Assembly (NCBI GenBank): GCA_015067005.1
Contig: SVNH01000004.1
Location: forward strand, 62,001-126,000
DNA length: 64,000 bases
Direction: 5' to 3'
Source of the DNA: Ruminococcus flavefaciens
Lineage (GTDB): Bacteria > Bacillota > Clostridia > Oscillospirales > Ruminococcaceae
Shown here: positions 5,085-24,705 of the stretch, piece after piece
Numbering within the stretch: position 1 is the stretch's first letter
How the letters are laid out: the number at the start of each line of letters is the position of its first letter
Translations under genes and position numbers: made by a program
The notes under the pieces: generated by a model
The model's database searches: none
Told to the model about the DNA's origin: nothing
The model's input: the letters and a program-made list of their open reading frames with translations, nothing else

Positions 5085-6128
5085 ATGAAAAGAATCAGAA
5101 TCAATACAACACAGCCATATGATGTTGTCATAGAGCGCGGAAGCCTTAAAAAGTGCGGTGAATACGTTGCTTCGATAACATCCTCAAGGACAGCTGCTAT
5201 AATCACTGACGATGTCGTTGAAAAGCTGTATCTCGGCGATGTCAGGAGATCGCTCGAAGAAAACGGATTCAAATGCACTTCTTATGTCTTTCCCAACGGT
5301 GAGCAGTCCAAGAGTATCGAAAATCTGAGCAAGATATATGATTTTCTCTGCGAAAGCGAGATCACGCGAAGTGACATAATCATTGCTCTCGGCGGAGGAG
5401 TTGTCGGCGATATCAGCGGATTTGCCGCTGCTTCATACCTCAGGGGCGTTGACTATGTCCAGATTCCTACAACTCTGCTTGCACAGGTGGATTCCTCGGT
5501 GGGCGGCAAGACTGCTATCGACATTCCTGGCGGCAAAAATCTTGTCGGCGCGTTCAAGCAGCCGAGTATAGTTATCTCGGACAGTGACACATTGAAGACA
5601 CTTCCGCCGGAAACCCTTGCAGACGGTATGGGAGAGGTCATAAAGTACGGCATGATACGCGATGAAGCGTTATTTGAACTGCTTGAGAAGTATGATCTCG
5701 AAACCTGTGACAATATCATGGACGAGATCGTTGCAAACTGCGTGGACATCAAGCGAGTTGTTGTTGAGCATGATACACTGGATAAGGGTGAGCGTATGAT
5801 TCTTAATTTCGGACACACTCTCGGTCATGCGCTTGAAGGCTGGCATCACTATACAGGTTACACTCACGGAATGGGGGTAGCTGCCGGTATGTGCATTATA
5901 ACAGAAAAGCTTGCATCACCGGAGATCGCAGAACGTCTCAAAAGCTGCGTTCAGAGATATAAACTCCCGACCGGTACCGATATACCGATGAGTGAACTGC
6001 TTCCGTTCTGTTCCAAGGACAAGAAACGTGAATCAGGCAGCATTAATTACATAATCTGCAAAACTATTGGCAATGCCGAGATCGTTAAAGTGGCAGTTCC
6101 TGAATTTGCACGTCTCATGGAGGGCTGA
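5085..6128 (+). CDS. aroB: 3-dehydroquinate synthase
   Basis: A 347-aa cytoplasmic enzyme that converts DAHP to 3-dehydroquinate, the second step of the shikimate pathway, using NAD and a divalent metal. Visible motifs: GEQSKS, the NAD-binding GGGVVGDISGF, PTTLLAQVDSSVGGKTAID, and metal-ligand regions GEVIKYG, NFGHTLGHALE and THGMGVAAGM. Length is normal. The start at 5085 has GCGGAGG 8 nt upstream. It is first in an operon with aroA (2-nt gap), aroC and a DUF4364 gene. Confidence 0.97.
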   Translation: MKRIRINTTQPYDVVIERGSLKKCGEYVASITSSRTAAIITDDVVEKLYLGDVRRSLEENGFKCTSYVFPNGEQSKSIENLSKIYDFLCESEITRSDIIIALGGGVVGDISGFAAASYLRGVDYVQIPTTLLAQVDSSVGGKTAIDIPGGKNLVGAFKQPSIVISDSDTLKTLPPETLADGMGEVIKYGMIRDEALFELLEKYDLETCDNIMDEIVANCVDIKRVVVEHDTLDKGERMILNFGHTLGHALEGWHHYTGYTHGMGVAAGMCIITEKLASPEIAERLKSCVQRYKLPTGTDIPMSELLPFCSKDKKRESGSINYIICKTIGNAEIVKVAVPEFARLMEG

Positions 6129-6130
6129 TC

Positions 6131-7357
6131 GTGGATATAAAAATTACACCTTCTTTGCTCAAGGGAGCGGTTAATATTCCGGCTTCAAAGAGCTGTGCCC
6201 ATAGAGTTATTATAAGTGCGGCGCTTGCAGGCGGAAAATCTGTTATAACAGGCGTTACGATGTCCAAGGATATTGACGCTACAATGAACGCGATGTCTGC
6301 TTTAGGAGCTTCATTCAGCGTTCACGGCGAAACGATAACAGTAGAGGGCATTGAAGTTCCAACAACAAAGGCAGTTATCGACTGCAACGAAAGCGGCTCG
6401 ACACTCCGTTTTATAATGCCTATCGCAGCTGCGCTCGGAACCGATTCTGAATTTAATGGACGCGGCAGACTTCCTCAGCGTCCGATAGACATATACAAGC
6501 GCGAACTCGGCAAAAACGGCGTAAAATTCGTTACAGCCGAGATGCCGTACAGACTGCGCGGAAAGCTTAAAGGCGGCAGGTACGAGATAGAGGGCAATGT
6601 CTCTTCACAGTTCGTTACAGGGCTCCTCTTTGCACTTCCGCTGATTGAGGAGGATTCTGAGATCGTGCTGACATCTCATCTTGAATCCGCGCCTTATGTT
6701 GATATAACTATCGACATCCTCAGCCGCTTCGGCATTGTAATTGACCGTACTGAAAACGGATTCTTCATAAAGGGCGGTCAGCAGTACCGCGCACATGATG
6801 AGAAAATAGAGGGGGATTACTCTCAGGCAGCATTTTTCTGCGTTGCAAATGCACTTGGCAGTGATGTTGAACTCGGTAACCTCTTTCCTGAAAGCGTACA
6901 GGGTGATAAAAGGATATTCGATATAGTCAGCGAAGCTTGTGAAAATGGGAGGATAACTTCCTTTAAGGCTGATTGTTCGGATATACCGGATCTTGTACCT
7001 ATACTCTCGGTGTTCGGCGCGTTCGGTACCGGCGAATCAGTGATATTCAACGCTGAAAGACTTCGCATCAAAGAAAGCGACCGTCTTGCAACAACAGCCG
7101 CAATGCTTAATGAACTCGGCGGCGATGTAACAGTCACCGATGATGGACTTATAATCCGTCCTACCGGTAATATGCACGGAGGTGTAGTTGACGGCGCAGG
7201 GGATCACAGAATAGTAATGGCAGCAGCGATCGCAGCAACGCGTACATCCGGCGAGGTCATGATAAAAGGTGCAGAAGCTGCTGAAAAATCATATCCCGAT
7301 TTTTTCAAGGATTATTCAAAACTCGGAGGTAGCATAAATGTCATCCATCTGGAATAA
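6131..7357 (+). CDS. aroA: 3-phosphoshikimate 1-carboxyvinyltransferase (EPSP synthase)
   Basis: A 408-aa enzyme joining phosphoenolpyruvate and shikimate-3-phosphate to EPSP. Family motifs are present: PASKSCAHR near the N-terminus, NESGSTLRFI, GRGRLPQRPI, EGNVSSQFVTGLL, DYSQAAFF and RIKESDRL. It begins with GTG; GGAGGG at the end of aroB is correctly spaced. The 3' end overlaps aroC by 20 nt, so the two are probably translationally coupled. Confidence 0.96.
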   Translation: MDIKITPSLLKGAVNIPASKSCAHRVIISAALAGGKSVITGVTMSKDIDATMNAMSALGASFSVHGETITVEGIEVPTTKAVIDCNESGSTLRFIMPIAAALGTDSEFNGRGRLPQRPIDIYKRELGKNGVKFVTAEMPYRLRGKLKGGRYEIEGNVSSQFVTGLLFALPLIEEDSEIVLTSHLESAPYVDITIDILSRFGIVIDRTENGFFIKGGQQYRAHDEKIEGDYSQAAFFCVANALGSDVELGNLFPESVQGDKRIFDIVSEACENGRITSFKADCSDIPDLVPILSVFGAFGTGESVIFNAERLRIKESDRLATTAAMLNELGGDVTVTDDGLIIRPTGNMHGGVVDGAGDHRIVMAAAIAATRTSGEVMIKGAEAAEKSYPDFFKDYSKLGGSINVIHLE

Positions 7358-8375
7358 CAGGATCTCAATATCAATTTTCGGCGAGTCTAACGGACCCGCT
7401 ATTGGTGTTACGGTCGATAATCTGCCTTCCGGAGAATACATTGATACCGAAGCACTTGCCCGTTTTATGGCGCGCAGGAACATCGGCAGAAACAAGGTCC
7501 GTGAGAACGTTATGCCGCACGTTATGTCCGGCATATACAACGACAGGACGACTGGCACACCGTTGTGTGCTTTTATACAGAATGTATCTGTAAAAGCTCC
7601 GCAGCACTCAAATCTCGACAGACTTTCACGTACCGGTCATGCTGATTATACGGGCGCTGTACGTTACCGTGGAATAAATGATTTTCGTGATGAGGGACAC
7701 TTCACCGACAGACTGACTATACCGCTTTGCTTTGCAGGAGCTATATGTGCTCAGATCCTCGAAAGACGCGGGATTTATACCGGTGCTCATGTTCTGAGTA
7801 TCCATAGCATCAAGGATAATCCCTTTGATCCGGTAAATATTACGCGTGACGGTGTCAAGAGTATCAGGGATAAGGATTTTCCGGTCATCAACGACCGCCG
7901 CGGCTGGCTCATGCAGGATGACATATACAAAGCAAAAGAAGCCGGGGAATCGCTCGGAGGTGTCATCGAGTGTGCGTCCGTAAACGTTCCGGCAGGCGTA
8001 GGTGCACCGATATTCGATGGTCTCAAGAATAACATTGCTCAGCTTATTTTCGGTATTCCGGGAGTTACCGGTCTTGAATTCGGCATAGGCTTCCGTTCGG
8101 CACGTATGGTCGGAAGCCAGAACAATGATGAGTTCTACGTCAGTGATCGCGGATATGTACTCTCAAAGACCAACAATCACGGCGGTATAATCGGCGGAAT
8201 ATCGTCCGGTATGCCTATAACTCTGAATGTAGCGGTCAAGCCGACTGTCACAAACCTTGACAGCGGTGAGGAAATACAGGAGACCTGTACAGTGCCTTCG
8301 ACAGTCGCAAGCGTTGAAGCGGCAGTAAACATCGCACTTCTTTCACACATGATAGATTATCCGAATTTCTGTTAA
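7338..8375 (+). CDS. aroC: Chorismate synthase, divergent
   Basis: 345 aa, by position and overall fold the enzyme that eliminates phosphate from EPSP to give chorismate with reduced FMN. The start at 7338 has GGAGG 8 nt upstream. It keeps IFGES.G, GHADYTGAVRY, GGIIGGISSGMPI and the general length, but several near-invariant features differ: GESHG reads GESNG (the N-terminal catalytic His), RPGHAD reads RTGHAD, the arginine-rich ARR..PG....R.E.D segment is altered, and the C-terminal HDPC.VPRA block reads QETCTVPST. Either function is kept by an unusual variant, or this copy is degenerate and another aroC exists. The family call is firm; full activity is uncertain. Confidence 0.9.
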   Translation: MSSIWNNRISISIFGESNGPAIGVTVDNLPSGEYIDTEALARFMARRNIGRNKVRENVMPHVMSGIYNDRTTGTPLCAFIQNVSVKAPQHSNLDRLSRTGHADYTGAVRYRGINDFRDEGHFTDRLTIPLCFAGAICAQILERRGIYTGAHVLSIHSIKDNPFDPVNITRDGVKSIRDKDFPVINDRRGWLMQDDIYKAKEAGESLGGVIECASVNVPAGVGAPIFDGLKNNIAQLIFGIPGVTGLEFGIGFRSARMVGSQNNDEFYVSDRGYVLSKTNNHGGIIGGISSGMPITLNVAVKPTVTNLDSGEEIQETCTVPSTVASVEAAVNIALLSHMIDYPNFC

Positions 8376-8384
8376 GGAGTTCAT

Positions 8385-8978
8385 ATGCAGGAAGAAAATA
8401 TAAAAAAAATGGCAGCCTTTGCCGATACGGAGATAAAGGACGTTCCCACGCTCAATATACTTCTTTGTTATCTGCTGTATAAGATTGCAAAGCCTGTTGA
8501 GACCGAGCAGCTGTATGAGATAGCTATCGGAACCGGAATCGTAAACTATTTCTATTATCAGGATTCGATCGACTATCTGTTGAAAAACGGTCTTATTTCG
8601 CTTGATAAGGACGAAAGCGGTCTTGAAGTCTATGTACTCCAGCCGAAGGGCAGGGAATGTGCGCGTGAGTTAAAGACATATGCGCCGAAGTCTTACAGGG
8701 ATAAGCTTGTGCTTGCTGCACTGAGGTATTTTGCCCGCAGAAAGGCTGAACAGGAATTAAAGATCGAATACATAAAGGTCGAAAACGGATATTATGTACA
8801 TATAAGATGTCTCGATGTAAGCTGCGATCTCATGGATATGAAGCTTTATGCACCTGACCTCGCACAGGCAAAAATGATAGGGGAGCGCGTACTCCTGAAT
8901 CCAGCCGGATTCTATGGAAAAGTGGTCGAGCTTGCTCTCTCGAACGAAGAGCCGCCCTATGATCTCAGCGACAATTAG
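8385..8978 (+). CDS. DUF4364 family protein
   Basis: A 197-aa cytoplasmic protein matching the Firmicutes DUF4364 family by its N-terminal part (LNILLCYLLYKIAKPVETEQLYEIAI, split by a turn) and by YYQDSIDYLLKNGLI, which looks like a winged-helix fold. A DNA-binding role is plausible but unproven. AAGGAG precedes the ATG by 5 nt. It follows aroC by 9 nt and is the last gene before the terminator. Confidence 0.8.
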   Translation: MQEENIKKMAAFADTEIKDVPTLNILLCYLLYKIAKPVETEQLYEIAIGTGIVNYFYYQDSIDYLLKNGLISLDKDESGLEVYVLQPKGRECARELKTYAPKSYRDKLVLAALRYFARRKAEQELKIEYIKVENGYYVHIRCLDVSCDLMDMKLYAPDLAQAKMIGERVLLNPAGFYGKVVELALSNEEPPYDLSDN

Positions 8979-8984
8979 TAAAAT

Positions 8985-9010
8985 AAAAAGACTCCTTTCG
9001 GAGTCTTTTT
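8985..9010. terminator. Terminator of the aro operon (copy 1)
   Basis: AAAAAGACTCC, loop TTTC, GGAGTCTTTTT: a perfect bidirectional hairpin with A- and T-rich flanks. The same hairpin core recurs at 9161-9187. Confidence 0.85.
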
Positions 9011-9049
9011 AGCTTGTTGAAAAAGTCGAATTATACATAAAAAGCAGCA

Positions 9050-9123
9050 TGGGCGGCGGAACGCCGCCCCTACATTTTGCCAAAATACCGTTGTTTCTTG
9101 TAGGGGCGACGTTCCGTCGCCCG
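9050..9123. repeat. Paired palindromic intergenic repeat element
   Basis: Two GC-rich arms at 9050-9073 and 9100-9123 are inverted copies of one another with only three differences. Each arm is itself a hairpin with 8-bp stems: GGGCGGCG/CGCCGCCC on the left and GGGCGACG/CGTCGCCC on the right; the G-C to A-T change is compensated. Both carry the flanking CCCCTAC/GTAGGGG motif seen in abundant REP-like repeats of many bacterial genomes. The 26-nt centre is A/T rich. No protein is encoded. Confidence 0.7.
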
Positions 9124-9160
9124 CTGATAACAGAATCGAAATGTGGTTTATTGACAGACT

Positions 9161-9187
9161 GAAAAGACTCCTTTCGGAGTCTTTTTT
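9161..9187. terminator. Terminator (copy 2) shared with the U32 gene end
   Basis: GAAAAGACTCC, loop TTTC, GGAGTCTTTTTTT. It has the same core as copy 1 and serves convergent transcripts; its T-run touches the stop of the U32 gene. Confidence 0.8.
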
Positions 9188-10413
9188 TATTGGTCAAGAT
9201 TTTTGCGGATAACAGTTCCCTTAGGGAAAGTCATATCACACGGGAATGAGAAGTTCATCATAGCGTGATTAGCTGTTTCGATCTGTTCTCCGTTTTCATT
9301 GTAGAGAATGTCGAGTTTCATTTCGACCGGTTTCTGTGACGGTGCAAGCAGTTCAACAGTATCTCCGGCGAAGAAGCGGTTGCGCTGAGTACAGTATACC
9401 TTACCGTCTGCACATGATTCAACGACGGCAACAACGTCATAGTTGCGAATATAGCCGCTGTTTTCGTAATACTGCGATTCCTCGGGAACCCCGAAGAAGA
9501 AACCGTTGCAGTATTTTCTGTGACTGACTTTGAATACCTCATCGCGTATCCAGTCAGGCAGCTTGAAATTGTAAGGATCTTTATAATACTCGTCAACAGC
9601 CATCCTGTAAGCATTTGTAACAACCGCTACATAGTAAGCGGACTTAGCTCTGCCCTCGATTTTTAGGCTCATAACGCCGGCTTCGGCAAGCTTATCAATG
9701 TGGTCGATCATGCACATATCCTTGGAATTGAGGATATAAGTACCTTTCTCGTCCTCATAAACAGGGAAGAACTCACCCGGACGCTTCTCCTCCATGAGGT
9801 GATAGCCCCATCTGCATGGCTGAGCACATTCGCCGCGGTTAGCGTCACGATTTACGAGGTACTGCGAAAGCAGACATCTTCCTGAGAAAGAAACGCACAT
9901 AGCACCGTGAACGAAGGTCTCAATGTCGAGTTCCGGACTTGTTTTTGCTCTGATCTCAGCTATCTCGTCGAGTGATAACTCACGCGCGAGTACAACTCTC
10001 TTAGCGCCCATATCGTACAGCTCACGCGCAGTAACATAGTTTACTATGCCGGTCTGAGTTGAAATGTGTATCTCCATATCCGGAGCATACTTCTTAACGA
10101 GCGAGAGCAGACCAATATCCGCAACTATCAGTGCATCGACCTTAGCAGACACCGCCTCCTCGACGAACTTCTGAAAGAATGGTATCTCGTTATTTCGCGG
10201 CAGGGTATTGCAGGTGACATACACCTTTATACCCTTAGCGTGAGCGGTATTTACCGCATTTACAAGCTGTTCGTAGTCAAAATTCATGGGCGAAGCGCGC
10301 ATACCGAACTGCTGACGTCCGAGGTAAACAGCGTCTGCGCCGTAGTTTACAGCAGCGCCGAAGCGCTCCTCGTCACCGGCTGGTGCGAGGACTTCGAGTT
10401 TATTGTTGAGCAT
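9187..10413 (-). CDS. U32 family peptidase / tRNA hydroxylation protein TrhP-like
   Basis: 408 aa. The N-terminal collagenase-like TIM barrel starts LEVLAPAGDEERFGAAVNYGADAVYLG, and the U32 signature with conserved cysteines is FVHGAMCVSFSGRCLLSQYL followed by NRGECAQPCRWGY. Relatives of this type (YegQ/TrhP; YrrN and YrrO in Bacillus) are needed for 5-hydroxyuridine at tRNA position 34, rather than being proven proteases. The start at 10413 has GGAGGG 8 nt upstream and overlaps the end of mltG by 14 nt. The mltG-U32 arrangement mirrors the Bacillus yrrL-yrrN-yrrO neighbourhood. Confidence 0.9.
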   Translation of the reverse strand: MLNNKLEVLAPAGDEERFGAAVNYGADAVYLGRQQFGMRASPMNFDYEQLVNAVNTAHAKGIKVYVTCNTLPRNNEIPFFQKFVEEAVSAKVDALIVADIGLLSLVKKYAPDMEIHISTQTGIVNYVTARELYDMGAKRVVLARELSLDEIAEIRAKTSPELDIETFVHGAMCVSFSGRCLLSQYLVNRDANRGECAQPCRWGYHLMEEKRPGEFFPVYEDEKGTYILNSKDMCMIDHIDKLAEAGVMSLKIEGRAKSAYYVAVVTNAYRMAVDEYYKDPYNFKLPDWIRDEVFKVSHRKYCNGFFFGVPEESQYYENSGYIRNYDVVAVVESCADGKVYCTQRNRFFAGDTVELLAPSQKPVEMKLDILYNENGEQIETANHAMMNFSFPCDMTFPKGTVIRKNLDQ

Positions 10414-20577: not shown

Positions 20578-20606
20578 TTGACGTTCTGCAATAAATATTA
20601 TATAAT
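20578..20606 (+). promoter_or_regulatory. Promoter of the rpe gene cluster
   Basis: -35 TTGACG (20578-20583), 17 nt, -10 TATAAT (20601-20606). Confidence 0.7.
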
Positions 20607-20676
20607 TAAAGTGTGTGAAATCTCACAGAAAGTAATAACAGTATCGGCTGTTACAACAACCGGAAGAAGTGATAAA

Positions 20677-21336
20677 GTGAAAAATTATGTATCAGCGTCA
20701 GTACTCAGCGCGGATATGCTGAATCTTCAGGACGAGATACGAAAGCTTGAAAGCAGCGGTATCGAAATGCTGCATTTCGACGTTATGGACGGTATATTCG
20801 TAAATAATATCACATTCGGACTGCCTGTTCTTGAAATGGTGAGGAAGTCCACTGATATGACGCTCGATGTACACCTCATGATAACAGATCCGCTGAAATA
20901 TGCCGAAAGATTCGCAAAAGCCGGCGCAGACTACATTTCGTTCCACATCGAGAGCGAGAGCGATACGGCTGAAACTATAAAGGCTATCAGGTCAGGCGGC
21001 GCGAAGCCTGCTCTTGCAATAAAGCCTGCAACACCGGCAGAGGCGGTATATGAGTATCTTGATCAGCTTGATATGGTACTCGTAATGACTGTCGAACCAG
21101 GTTTCGGGGGACAGAGTTTCATTCCCGAAACTACCGAAAAAGTTAGAAAAATAAGGAATAAGGCTGATGAACTCGGTCTTGACATAATGGTAGAGGTAGA
21201 TGGCGGTATCAATGATTCTACATCAGAGATAGTAAAGGAAGCAGGGGCAAACGTCCTCGTTTCCGGAAGTTATCTGTTCAGAGCCGCAGACATGGCGTCA
21301 GCTGCTGCCGGACTAAGGAAAGGTAAGATATGCTGA
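20677..21336 (+). CDS. rpe: Ribulose-phosphate 3-epimerase
   Basis: 219 aa; interconverts ribulose-5-phosphate and xylulose-5-phosphate in the pentose phosphate pathway. TIM-barrel motifs: ASVLSAD at the start, HFDVMDG, DVHLMI, MTVEPGFGGQSFI and EVDGGIN. The GTG at 20677 is chosen because the conserved family N-terminus begins there and GGAAG lies upstream; the longer reading would span the promoter. Its end overlaps the RnfD-like gene by 7 nt. Confidence 0.93.
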   Translation: MKNYVSASVLSADMLNLQDEIRKLESSGIEMLHFDVMDGIFVNNITFGLPVLEMVRKSTDMTLDVHLMITDPLKYAERFAKAGADYISFHIESESDTAETIKAIRSGGAKPALAIKPATPAEAVYEYLDQLDMVLVMTVEPGFGGQSFIPETTEKVRKIRNKADELGLDIMVEVDGGINDSTSEIVKEAGANVLVSGSYLFRAADMASAAAGLRKGKIC

Positions 21337-22316
21337 AAAAGGCGAAAAAAGAGCGCCTTATATGGCTCGATATAATGATAACGCTTTCTGCTCTTGAAGT
21401 AATGGCGTATTTCTATTACGGAGTGAGAGCAGCTGCACTCGGATGCCTGTGCGTGGGTGTTTCACTCATAGCCGAAGTTATCTCGCAGAGAGCAATGGGG
21501 CGCAGGTTCACTGCCGATGATCTGACCTGTACATCTGATGCACTGATAATCTCGCTTATGTTCTCAGCAGCTATGAACTACAAGCTCGCAGTATTTGCCT
21601 GCATTTTTGCAGTTGTGGCAGCCAAGAATATATTCGGCGGCAGACGCAACATGATATTCTCGCCGGCTGCTGCGGCTTATATATTCATACTGACTTCGTG
21701 GAGCAAGGAACTTCTCATGTATCCCGAACCGCATGATCATTTAGGTCTTACAGAAAAGCCGGATGAGCTTGTATATTCAGCTTCACATACATTTAACATC
21801 ACAGGAAAAATGGAGCTTACTGATTTTGAGATACTCATGGGCAATTTCAGCGGTCCGGCAGGCTCGCTCAGTGTGCTTCTGCTCGTTATCTCAGCTGTAA
21901 TGCTGATATTCCGCGGTGACATTTCCGCCGGAGCATTTCTCGGCTCCGTAAGCGGTACTGCTGCACTTGCGTTGATTTCGCCGGTATGTGAATCGCGTGT
22001 AGATTCAGTCGGATATTCGATAGTGTCAAATATGGTGCTGTTTGCTTCGGTATATATCATTGCAGATAAGCGTATAGCACCGCAAAGAAATTTCTACGCA
22101 TTTTTCTACGGATTTTTCATCGCAGCCTGTGCCTATGTAATAGTTCTCACAACTGCTAAGGAAAATGCAATAATCATGGTATCTGTGCTGTTCACGCCAG
22201 TAGCTCTGGGATTAAAAAATCTTGAAAAGCGTATTGATAAAGCGATAGATCAGGAAAAGAACGAAGCTGCTGAACTTCTTGCTGCGAAAGAGCAGAAGGG
22301 AGGCGCTGACATATGA
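21330..22316 (+). CDS. RnfD/NqrB-like membrane protein, divergent
   Basis: A 328-aa polytopic membrane protein of the RnfD/NqrB family: early hydrophobic helices, MIFSPAAAAYIF, and GNFSGPAGSLSVLLLVISAV, the counterpart of the GN.PG..GE.S segment. In true RnfD, FMN is bound covalently to the Thr of a S.AT-type site; the aligned stretch here reads VYSASHTF, with Ser in place of Thr. A charged C-terminal tail (EKRIDKAIDQEKNEAAELLAAK) is added. It overlaps rpe by 7 nt and the next gene by 4 nt. The electron-transport role is doubtful because partner subunits B, C and G are absent nearby. Confidence 0.8.
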   Translation: MLKKAKKERLIWLDIMITLSALEVMAYFYYGVRAAALGCLCVGVSLIAEVISQRAMGRRFTADDLTCTSDALIISLMFSAAMNYKLAVFACIFAVVAAKNIFGGRRNMIFSPAAAAYIFILTSWSKELLMYPEPHDHLGLTEKPDELVYSASHTFNITGKMELTDFEILMGNFSGPAGSLSVLLLVISAVMLIFRGDISAGAFLGSVSGTAALALISPVCESRVDSVGYSIVSNMVLFASVYIIADKRIAPQRNFYAFFYGFFIAACAYVIVLTTAKENAIIMVSVLFTPVALGLKNLEKRIDKAIDQEKNEAAELLAAKEQKGGADI

Positions 22317-22948
22317 ATGAAAACAAAAGATCTGTATTCGCGGGAATACTCGGTGATAATGCAGTCCTCTCCGGACTTATGGTCATTTCGCCTGTGATAG
22401 TATGCGGAGACCATATTCGCAATGCACTTGTACTCATATACGCCTTCTCGACGATAACTTTTCTGTCGGTAGTTATATCGTCATTTGTACCGCGTAAGCT
22501 TTCGTATGCCGTTAAAATAATGATATACGCCGTGATCTCATCACTTGTATATCTGCCGGTAAGAACTGCTGCGGATACATTTTTTCCGGATTCAGTAGAC
22601 AGGATAGGAATATATTTTCCGCTGCTTGCTGTAAACTCGTTTATCGTATTCCAGAGTGAGGTAAAGTTTTTCCGTATGCCGCGCGGAAAAATGACTTTAT
22701 CACTTATATTCTATATCATCGGATTCGATGCGGTCATGCTTATCACAGCCTTTATCCGCGAACTCTTCGCTTACGGTACTATAAACAGCAAAATGGCGGA
22801 TGTCGATACTCTTATAAGCGGTCTCGGCGAGCCTTTCGGCGGCTTTATCTTCCTCGGACTTATGTGCGGAGTTTACCGCAAGATACGTTCAATGGCGAGC
22901 CGAAGCAAAAATTCAGCAAGGGGTGAAACTGATGCATCTGGTAAATGA
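22313..22948 (+). CDS. RnfE/NqrD-like membrane protein lacking both cluster cysteines
   Basis: A 211-aa membrane protein aligned with RnfE: DNAVLSGLMVISPVIV corresponds to the family's N-P.....G.CP.LAV, and RIGIYFPLLAVNSFIV to GI.IPL..VNC...G. Both cysteines that bind the membrane-embedded iron-sulfur cluster in Rnf/Nqr are serine here. FIRELFAYGTI is retained. The C-terminus ends in a basic, soluble tail. GGGAGG precedes the ATG, which overlaps the previous stop as ATGA. Confidence 0.8.
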   Translation: MNENKRSVFAGILGDNAVLSGLMVISPVIVCGDHIRNALVLIYAFSTITFLSVVISSFVPRKLSYAVKIMIYAVISSLVYLPVRTAADTFFPDSVDRIGIYFPLLAVNSFIVFQSEVKFFRMPRGKMTLSLIFYIIGFDAVMLITAFIRELFAYGTINSKMADVDTLISGLGEPFGGFIFLGLMCGVYRKIRSMASRSKNSARGETDASGK

Positions 22949-23504
22949 TCTGATCGTTTTTCTTGCTGCAAATCTGATACTTAGTCAGGCACTCGGCATA
23001 AGTACAATGTTCATAGCTGCCGGAAGCCGCAGGAATCTTGTAGGAACAGCCTGCTGCATAATGGTATTCACAACAGTCGGAACAATGGCAGCTTACCTTA
23101 TAGACAGTGCGCTTCCAAGCAGACTCTCTGATCTGAGACTTTTATTCTATACTCTTGCGATCGGTGTTATGTACATCGGTTCGCTTGGTGCAGTTTACAG
23201 CATAAAACGTCTTGACTTCGCAGTAATAAGGAAGTATATACACCTTTCAGCATTCAACTGTGCTGTTATGGGAACTCTATTCACTATAAGCAATAAAGCA
23301 CGGTCAGACAGTTCGCTCATGAACTTTGCAGAATACCTGAAATTCGGCTTTGAAGCCGGTTTAGGCTTTATAACCGCAGCTCTTATACTTACGGCTGCAT
23401 ACAGAAAACTCAACTCATCGAAAGTACCGGCATCATTCCGAGGATTTCCCGCAATGCTGGTATATACAGGTATAATTTCGATGGCAGTATACTCTTTAAA
23501 GTGA
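22932..23504 (+). CDS. RnfA/NqrE-like membrane protein, one cluster cysteine lost
   Basis: A 190-aa, six-helix-type protein of the RnfA family. ANLILSQALGISTMF corresponds to NN.VLS.FLGICPF (Cys to Ser), while the second site FNCAVMG keeps its Cys; ASFRGFPAMLV near the end is the family's FqGFP motif. The ATG at 22932 has AGGGG 8 nt upstream; a GTG at 22923 is possible but would overlap that site. Overlaps the RnfE-like gene by 17 nt. Last of the D-E-A trio. Confidence 0.8.
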   Translation: MHLVNDLIVFLAANLILSQALGISTMFIAAGSRRNLVGTACCIMVFTTVGTMAAYLIDSALPSRLSDLRLLFYTLAIGVMYIGSLGAVYSIKRLDFAVIRKYIHLSAFNCAVMGTLFTISNKARSDSSLMNFAEYLKFGFEAGLGFITAALILTAAYRKLNSSKVPASFRGFPAMLVYTGIISMAVYSLK

Positions 23505-23535: not shown

Positions 23536-24705
23536 ATGGGACGAAAAACTAAAGGAAGGAAAATCTATAAAACTAAAGAAAAAAATTATTACGGTAAAAC
23601 TCCTCTGGGAAAAGCTTTTTCAGTTGCACTTTCTGTGCTGCTGATAGGTGGTCTTGGCTTCATCGGATACAGCGTTGCTGAACCGATAGTGAACTATACA
23701 AAGAAAAAGGGTGATGATACAGTAAATGTCTCGGATACCTCAGATCCTTCCGAAAAAAAAGGTTCAGGCAGCGAAGATTCCGAAACGGCAGTTTACAAAG
23801 CATATGCTCTTAAAGCTGCTGATCTGAAAAATATTGATGCACTCAATGCCGCTCTCGACAGGATACCTGCTGTTACCGGTATAGAATTTGTAGAAGTTCC
23901 GCTCAAAGTCAGCGGCGGAAACATATACTATAAGAGCGGAGTTCAGCTCGCAAGTGACTGCCATGCTGTTCAGGGAAGCTTAGTTCTGAGCGACATCGTG
24001 ACAGCTATCGACGATGCAGGTTATAAACCTGCCGGACTTGTAAGCGCATTCAATGACAGTCTACTTCCTAAGCTTGATAAGAATACGAGCTACCTCGTAA
24101 AAACAGGCGAGCAGTGGATCGACAATACTCAGGAAGCCGGCGGTAAACCGTGGCTTACTCCCTATTCATCGACTTCTGTCAACTATATCGGCGACATCGT
24201 TACCGAGATCGCTTCTGCCGGATTCAAGAAGATAATCTGCTCGGATATAAGCTATCCGGATTTCAGAAAAGTTGATCTTGAATATCTTCCGGATGAACTT
24301 GCAGACAAGAAGCGCTTTCAGGTGCTTACATCGGCAGCGAATCTTTTCTACGACAGAGCAGTCAACTACGGTTCATCGCTTTCTGTCGAGATCTCAGGAA
24401 CTGATATTCTCAAGGGCAATACCGATCTCATTGATGAGCCTCTTTACCTCAATGTGAAATCGCTCGTTGTCAATATCAACATTGACGAGATCAGCAAAGG
24501 TGTACACACCGACGCTACTGTATATGAATTCACAGGCACAGCGGCTGACAAAACTGCAAAATTTCTCGAACTCACCAAGGATAAACTCAAAGACTACGAC
24601 AAAGCTGTCATCAGACTTACCGGAACCTCTGTCGGGGTTGATGAACTCCTCAAAGCAAAAGAGGTCATTACTGATTACGGCTATGAATCATTCATTATAG
24701 GCTAA
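23536..24705 (+). CDS. Membrane-anchored putative glycoside hydrolase-like protein (DUF4015-type)
   Basis: 389 aa: a basic N-terminus, one membrane span (about 30-50, SVALSVLLIGGLGFIGYSVA), a Ser/Asp/Lys-rich linker to about 85, then an extracellular alpha/beta barrel. The stretch WLTPYSSTSVNYIGDIVTEI followed by AGFKKIICSDISYPDF resembles the DUF4015 'putative glycosyl hydrolase' core (W-D-P-Y ... GFDEI.LDY.RFP), with the usual acidic residues partly replaced. Activity is therefore uncertain. GGAG sits 7 nt before the ATG. Confidence 0.65.
   Translation: MGRKTKGRKIYKTKEKNYYGKTPLGKAFSVALSVLLIGGLGFIGYSVAEPIVNYTKKKGDDTVNVSDTSDPSEKKGSGSEDSETAVYKAYALKAADLKNIDALNAALDRIPAVTGIEFVEVPLKVSGGNIYYKSGVQLASDCHAVQGSLVLSDIVTAIDDAGYKPAGLVSAFNDSLLPKLDKNTSYLVKTGEQWIDNTQEAGGKPWLTPYSSTSVNYIGDIVTEIASAGFKKIICSDISYPDFRKVDLEYLPDELADKKRFQVLTSAANLFYDRAVNYGSSLSVEISGTDILKGNTDLIDEPLYLNVKSLVVNINIDEISKGVHTDATVYEFTGTAADKTAKFLELTKDKLKDYDKAVIRLTGTSVGVDELLKAKEVITDYGYESFIIG

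Follow-up and report, generated by a model that had tools for sequence, protein, structure and literature searches.

What does the membrane core of an Rnf complex do when the partners and ligands for electron transfer are missing from it? This question is raised by a 64,000-nucleotide (nt) stretch of Ruminococcus flavefaciens DNA (contig SVNH01000004.1, positions 62,001 to 126,000; hereafter the window), in which three overlapping open reading frames (ORFs), all on the + strand, encode relatives of RnfD, RnfE, and RnfA (here D, E, and A, together the trio). Work on Rnf and NQR has treated them as redox pumps, with ion movement gated by electron steps; a natural, selected core without electron carriers would make it possible to ask what the membrane part does by itself and whether ion passage and redox are separable. 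The results suggest that an energy pump has been reused for another job in Ruminococcus and related gut bacteria, where the second core often accompanies an ordinary Rnf. No description of a stripped D-E-A set was found in the open-access literature searched.

The trio and its cofactor sites

A preliminary description, made from the letters alone, had named the three genes as relatives of RnfD, RnfE, and RnfA, and the family searches bear this out. D scored 118.5 bits against PF03116 (cut-off, 27.7), and E and A scored 74.4 and 62.4 bits against PF02508 (cut-off for E, 23.8); PDB profile searches placed D, E, and A on RnfD, RnfE, and RnfA of C. tetanomorphum, A. woodii, and A. vinelandii. Scores against the NCBIfam rnfD, rnfE, and rnfA models were well below cut-off (e.g., 71.5 versus 207 bits for rnfD), and the proteins are therefore diverged members of these families. 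The top Foldseek PDB matches of an AlphaFold2 (AF2) model of A were NqrE (E value, 4.9e-4) and RnfA (3.1e-3); no site geometry was taken from this model because of its middling confidence (mean predicted local distance difference test [pLDDT] score, 69.7) and the pLDDT below 50 at residues 22 to 33, which include Ser27. Only D-E-A of CDGEAB is present, as had been noted: the ORFs at the locus include no RnfB, RnfC, or RnfG gene next to the trio, and the eight neighboring proteins scanned gave no match to NqrF or NqrC homologues.

The invariant metal ligands of the C. tetanomorphum complex are given as Cys25 and Cys113 of RnfA and Cys26 and Cys109 of RnfE in the account of that structure (PMC9588780). 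Profile alignment to solved Rnf proteins puts the cysteines at the positions that had been assigned by eye, and three of the four membrane [2Fe-2S] ligands are Ser in the trio: E has Ser26 and Ser109, and A has Ser27 and retains Cys113. The covalent flavin mononucleotide (FMN) Thr of RnfD, also reported earlier as replaced, falls on Ser150 or Ser152 of D according to the alignment register and is Ser in both registers. The target motif of ApbE has an Asp six residues before the Thr; this motif is seen in most canonical rows of the alignment and not in the D of the window. Some other proteins carry covalent FMN on Ser, as a figure legend states (PMC11334425), and the Ser letter alone therefore does not exclude flavinylation of D.

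The same contig carries a complete rnfCDGEAB (L005) in which the four cysteines, the motif of D, and the loop of RnfC are all intact, and the trio is therefore a paralogue and not the cell's Rnf. Matches in the genome agree with two sets, with four places for PF02508 (two per set) and two for PF03116; ApbE is found once and FMN_bind twice, once within the canonical rnf and once on contig 18.

A trio-type D was found in 45 of the 60 genomes of the genus, the window's own counted (E value, 2.6e-95 or better), and in two more (G017 and G054) the trio is broken by a contig end. For closer comparison, the window was aligned with the best 80 of 94 named-record loci, which were found by two D patterns; the nearest is from an uncultured Ruminococcus (98% in D), followed by R. 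flavefaciens and Ruminococcus sp., and some loci bear other names (e.g., Clostridia bacterium and Alistipes sp.). The patterns include Ser111 and Asp246 of D, which biases the counts for both residues in this alignment. E Ser109 is Ser in 80/80 rows and E Ser26 in 79/80, the remaining row being a gap; A Ser27, Cys113, and His107 are each present in 79/79; D Ser150 is found in 81/81 and Ser152 in 80/81 (one Thr). E Cys31 occurs in 79/80 rows, with a gap in the other. D Asp246 is present in 81/81 rows, one of the two search patterns including it, and in two other sets it is kept in at least 95% of 41 trios and in 18/18 rows of another alignment (A3). The 41 trios, a second, smaller, and more diverse set obtained by protein search or fetched by place, have E Ser26 in 39 (one Ala and one gap), Ser109 in 40, and Cys31 in 40; the key letters of FRGFP and RELFAYGTI, previously singled out as conserved, are kept among them.

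The codon comparison proposed in the preliminary description gave a ratio of nonsynonymous to synonymous substitution (dN/dS) of about 0.07, which indicates purifying selection. The median NG86 values over close pairs are 0.073 for D (51 pairs), 0.072 for E (52 pairs), and 0.082 for A (55 pairs), all rough, as the pairs share species and dS is near 1; the neighboring genes gave 0.093 (rpe), 0.084 (whiA), 0.066 (murB), 0.026 (rapZ), and 0.011 (hprK). With these ratios and E and A residues that are invariant in 79 to 80 genus loci, the trio genes are under selection and not decaying. The features of the locus are collected in Table 1; an Rfam scan of the window returned nothing at the gathering score.

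TABLE 1 Genes and cofactor-site residues of the trio locus (positions in the window)
Feature	Positions	Strand	Description
rpe	20578..21336	+	Ribulose-phosphate 3-epimerase, conserved upstream neighbor and marker of the locus; PF00834, 248.8 bits; overlaps D start
D	21330..22316	+	RnfD/NqrB-like membrane subunit without covalent-FMN motif; 328 aa; PF03116; aligns to 7zc6_D
E	22313..22948	+	RnfE/NqrD-like membrane subunit, both cluster Cys replaced by Ser; 211 aa; PF02508; aligns to 7zc6_E
A	22923..23504	+	RnfA/NqrE-like membrane subunit; 193 aa, GTG start; PF02508; aligns to 9eri_A, 8ahx_A, 7zc6_A
H	23536..24705	+	DUF4015 protein, conserved partner; PF13200, 45.4 bits (cut-off, 27)
D Ser150-Ala-Ser152	21777..21785	+	Region of RnfD covalent-FMN Thr (S.AT)
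D Asp246	22065..22067	+	Counterpart of RnfD Asp248, which is strictly conserved and lies at the riboflavin and putative Na+ site
E Ser26	22388..22390	+	Aligned to RnfE Cys26, [2Fe-2S] ligand (profile alignment to C. tetanomorphum RnfE)
E Cys31	22403..22405	+	Cys conserved in Ruminococcus trios, absent from canonical RnfE
E Ser109	22637..22639	+	Aligned to RnfE Cys109 (profile alignment)
A Ser27	23001..23003	+	Aligned to RnfA Cys25 (profile alignment)
A Cys113	23259..23261	+	Aligned to RnfA Cys113; sole cluster Cys retained of four

A stripped family in the order

Related loci were picked by comparing the D of the window with 99 relatives and the A subunit with 297 genomes of the order, and were then fetched (L and G codes denote loci and genomes, and f codes denote families of the order). 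The 43 loci scoring higher with a stripped profile of A or E were sorted as stripped and 18 as canonical; the stripped loci had been chosen for high stripped-type scores or a second RnfD match and are not a random sample, and the sorting profiles were built partly from the same loci, so that sorting and site counts are not fully independent. To avoid weighting the genus, cross-family counts take from Ruminococcus only the window, L040, L051, L054, and L055 and leave out 16 loci (L041 to L050, L052, L053, and L056 to L059). Three rows are incomplete: L066 stops before A, L196, on another contig of the same genome (G073), consists of A and H only, and in L060 H is cut.

Stripped loci occur in six families (f1, which is the window's own, f5, f7, f15, f23, and f24), usually arranged as rpe-[C]-D-E-A-H, with rpe in 39/43 and an RnfG or RnfB gene in 0/43. 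The 41 stripped loci with both E and A retain either none (19 loci) or one (22 loci) of the cluster cysteines, compared with four in 17/18 canonical loci and two in the other. The covalent-FMN motif is present in 18/18 canonical D proteins versus 2/42 stripped ones, 4/42 of which have the aligned Thr. RnfC is encoded in 13 stripped loci; all 13 keep both [4Fe-4S] motifs and all 13 have lost the GG..FP loop for NADH and FMN, as scored by reading the alignment. The equivalent of the FMN-side Glu185, present in 18/18 canonical rows, is lost in 39/42 stripped D, and, of the 42, 35 have Asp and 5 have Glu at the position of Asp248; the electron sites thus went and the ion-path acid mostly stayed. 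The Asn90 equivalent is also lost in 39/42, yet this position is Asn in just 10/18 canonical rows.

That all four replacements are to Ser, as had been stated, holds within the genus, and other D-E-A clusters with the same Ser residues, which the preliminary description proposed to look for, are found there. Other genera carry different letters: over 42 stripped rows, position 26 of E is Ala in 24, Ser in 4, Phe in 4, Tyr in 3, and other letters in 7, and the other sites vary as well. The all-Ser pattern is therefore characteristic of the window's genus. A Cys113 is lost in 20/42 stripped A, and E Cys31 is mostly absent outside the genus (L157, L158, L176, and L192 have a Cys one position on).

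A tree of D+E+A, built with five site columns removed and without L168, L190, and L191 (near copies), L062 (short E), and L066 and L196 (incomplete), places the 37 stripped rows on one side of a branch with support of 100/99, to be read with caution given the long branches of L055 and L067 and a skewed letter make-up in 11 rows. Sets that include C branch closest to the canonical rows, and C may have disappeared two or more times, with support of 93/88 for one branch concerned. A class sample (293 genomes) gave no stripped set among its six highest-scoring A matches from other orders, each of which belongs to a complete CDGEAB set.

Several single loci depart from these patterns. L055 (G020, 5664-10308) is a second, strongly diverged rpe-D-E-A-H in a Ruminococcus genome that has the usual trio as well, and it forms the longest branch of the tree. 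L063 (G077), the lone canonical exception in the cysteine counts, is a complete rnf whose E and A are each one cluster Cys short (AANG and GCGS). L072 (G075, 6622-9423) is an incomplete Rnf, C-D-B, with no G, E, or A nearby, in a genome without an RnfA-type match; the GG..FP loop of its RnfC is absent by eye.

H, a DUF4015 partner, and the range of loci

The gene downstream of A, designated H, lies just outside the coordinates of the preliminary description, which mentioned neither H nor the series of loci presented here. H is the sole DUF4015 match in the window's genome, and an H gene lies near A in 38/43 stripped loci. Its AF2 model (pLDDT, 88.5) has an N-terminal membrane helix and a triosephosphate isomerase (TIM) barrel that aligns to Cwp19 and to the glycoside hydrolase (GH) domain of PgaB; the helix and the usual place after rnf-type genes set H apart from these GH-type barrels. 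Asp196 of H is invariant. On this model, H is likely a glycan enzyme, perhaps acting on peptidoglycan, and would sit outside the membrane. DUF4015, a partner of unknown function, thereby gains a testable context.

H also follows complete rnfCDGEAB sets in other families (4/18 canonical loci by Pfam: L069, L182, L194, and L195), to which a profile search adds L207, L208, and L210; L069 and L208, from two genomes of one genus, have the order rpe-CDGEAB-H. Seven further DUF4015 genes fetched in the order comprise three after a complete rnf, one after rpe (L206), and three with neither (L204, L205, and L209). The states seen are thus rpe-CDGEAB-H, rpe-C-D-E-A-H, rpe-D-E-A-H, and rpe-H, and the tree and the lost sites suggest that the series runs by loss and may be reductive. 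Together, these loci, which extend from complete rnf through C-D-E-A and D-E-A to H by itself, would represent a second fate, alongside NQR, for rnf operons that were duplicated.

Explanations for the stripped core

That the trio is a selected, Rnf-derived core that transfers no electrons and is functionally linked to H is, in our judgment, quite probable. As a whole, the best explanation, to which we give about an even chance, is that the trio is what remains of a second rnf operon linked to rpe and has been retained for a task other than redox. According to PMC12174285, the Rnf membrane subunits pass electrons via [2Fe-2S], two FMN, and riboflavin, the RnfA-E dimer switches between inward and outward states as RnfG swings, and RnfD is a relative of ammonium/urea transporters; PMC9588780 proposes a Na+ site beside riboflavin that includes Asp248 of RnfD. 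The second operon would have lost its electron path stepwise, starting with RnfB and RnfG, followed by the NADH/FMN site of RnfC, then the membrane [2Fe-2S] and covalent FMN, and then RnfC itself. D, E, and A probably still assemble in the membrane as RnfD, RnfE, and RnfA do, and the conserved Asp246 of D is a hint that this non-redox core is coupled to ions and works with H. With no electron carrier as gate, this assembly could use, or simply respond to, a Na+ or H+ gradient by way of the acid conserved in D and of the alternating E and A half-helices. It might then contact and hold, move, or regulate the membrane-anchored, presumably catalytic barrel of H outside the membrane. Among mechanisms, we favor an ion-coupled membrane assembly in support of H. 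We regard this specific effect on H as doubtful all the same, and it is unlikely that the redox-gated pump has turned into a gradient-driven, non-redox machine that moves or switches H and takes over the mechanical role of the swinging domain of RnfG.

Several observations weigh against this explanation. Riboflavin could still bind in D, and the loss of redox function may thus be incomplete; at the ion-path position Asn124, the equivalent Asn is kept in 25/42 stripped D versus 18/18 canonical ones. The trio occurs with no canonical Rnf-Nqr match in G002 (completeness, 99%; contamination, 5%) and G041 (90% and 7%), both of which have ApbE together with other FMN_bind proteins; ApbE loss is therefore not general. 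Four stripped loci, all in f24, have no H near A. Five Ruminococcus genomes (L197 to L201) have rpe-H with D-E-A absent and hprK-murB-rapZ-whiA-dnaE intact, and in another family L206 (G067, 6452-9416) has DUF4015 after rpe, with no rnf gene in the stretch and no RnfD match in the genome. H therefore does not need D-E-A. The RnfD search found neither canonical nor trio type in the same five Ruminococcus genomes, a joint absence that would also fit a link between the two systems.

Such a link is what would be expected if the trio were an alternative or regulatory module of the canonical Rnf that swaps with or caps RnfD/E/A, for example, to idle the pump. The window's genome has both sets, which speaks for this idea, and the preliminary description had itself allowed for a complete cluster whose subunits pair with these proteins. 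The complete cluster does exist. The absence of D-E-A in the five-genome clade is, nevertheless, a single event on the neighbor-gene tree (support, 100/100), and the two types also occur apart. G009 has the canonical set only, with ApbE present, and G026 has neither a PF02508 match nor ApbE. Four f7 genomes (90 to 98% complete) have two PF02508 matches each, both of stripped type, and genome searches found no ApbE and no FMN_bind protein in them; G065, G089, and G150 were read as loci and G108 by scores only, and the result covers these four, the A scores of other f7 genomes (G123, G137, G162, and G175) being lower. Since the trio or stripped sets occur in G002, G041, and these four genomes where no canonical Rnf-Nqr was found, pairing is unlikely as a general rule, and we assign the module idea a low probability. 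The proposal that the trio moves electrons by other cofactors (non-covalent riboflavin in D, a metal site of A Cys113 and E Cys31, and an unknown donor) is equally improbable. It draws on the conservation of both cysteines in the genus and of the riboflavin-side Asp, and on the [4Fe-4S] motifs retained in the RnfC of sister sets. Against this, the two cysteines are not conserved across the family, which leaves such a site possible within Ruminococcus, no donor or acceptor subunit is adjacent, the FMN site of D is lost, and the four f7 genomes lack ApbE and FMN_bind.

The ammonium/urea-transporter-like fold of D could also make D-E-A a small-molecule transporter, for flavin or for a sugar fragment freed by H, whose barrel is glycosidase-like; this leaves E and A unexplained, and it seems less probable still. 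Slow decay of a redundant rnf copy with no function of its own would account for subunits lost one by one over the order and for the clade without D-E-A. It was rejected on the dN/dS of all three genes and on residues conserved over loci that are 45 to 98% identical in D, and the trio is retained in at least 45 of the 60 genus genomes; we hold it to be very improbable. The repurposed rather than decayed core that the preliminary description favored is well supported by the single clade, the purifying selection, the conserved replacement residues, and the absence of ApbE and FMN_bind from the four genomes with only stripped-type Rnf-Nqr matches. For the roles that it suggested (ion channel, transporter, or scaffold), the conserved acid of D gives indirect support to ion coupling.

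Compared with the Rnf complex, the trio has homologues of RnfD, RnfE, and RnfA in the same order, an A model that fits the NqrE/RnfA folds, an RnfC homologue in some sister sets, and an rpe that also stands upstream of the complete L069 and L208 sets. It differs in having no B, G, or (in the window) C and in the loss of the cluster cysteines and the covalent FMN site, and the RnfC of the stripped family, where present, is without the NADH/FMN loop. Since these defining features are missing, the trio is filed, on its sequence, as an Rnf-derived variant and not as an Rnf complex, and an "RnfA/D/E" annotation in many Ruminococcaceae-type genomes does not imply ferredoxin energy conservation. NQR, the known precedent, is described as having arisen from an rnf duplicate in which RnfB disappeared and the RnfC-derived NqrA no longer has its cofactors (PMC4014512, PMC12174285), and the stripped family shares with Na+-NQR the duplication, the loss of RnfB, and the loss of cofactor sites in the RnfC descendant. 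Na+-NQR, however, keeps and uses its membrane [2Fe-2S] cluster and both covalent FMN cofactors and has acquired NqrF, whereas in the stripped family these sites are lost and no known input module has been added. The two-subunit NQR/RNF-like systems outlined in PMC8238504 and PMC11334425 combine an RnfD-like protein fused to an NAD-binding domain with a flavinylated extracytosolic FMN-bind subunit. They also have an RnfD-like membrane domain without the flavinylation Thr; the trio has no FMN-bind and no NAD domain (D matches PF03116 alone) and keeps E and A.

Minor variations were seen in the stripped proteins and their surroundings. The E of f7 (L070, 7857-9374; L189; L190) has an N-terminal low-complexity extension of ∼300 residues, and the D of several genera of the window's family (L157 to L171; eight D read) has a long, charged, likely cytoplasmic C-terminal tail. 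In L062, the E frame of G081 (7581-7985) is cut to 134 aa, by an assembly error or a true truncation. A MecA-type gene (PF05389), encoded on the opposite strand, separates rpe from C or D in L060 (4461-5039) and L062 (9072-9605), and ORFs similar to it by eye occur at the same place in L055, L066, and L067.

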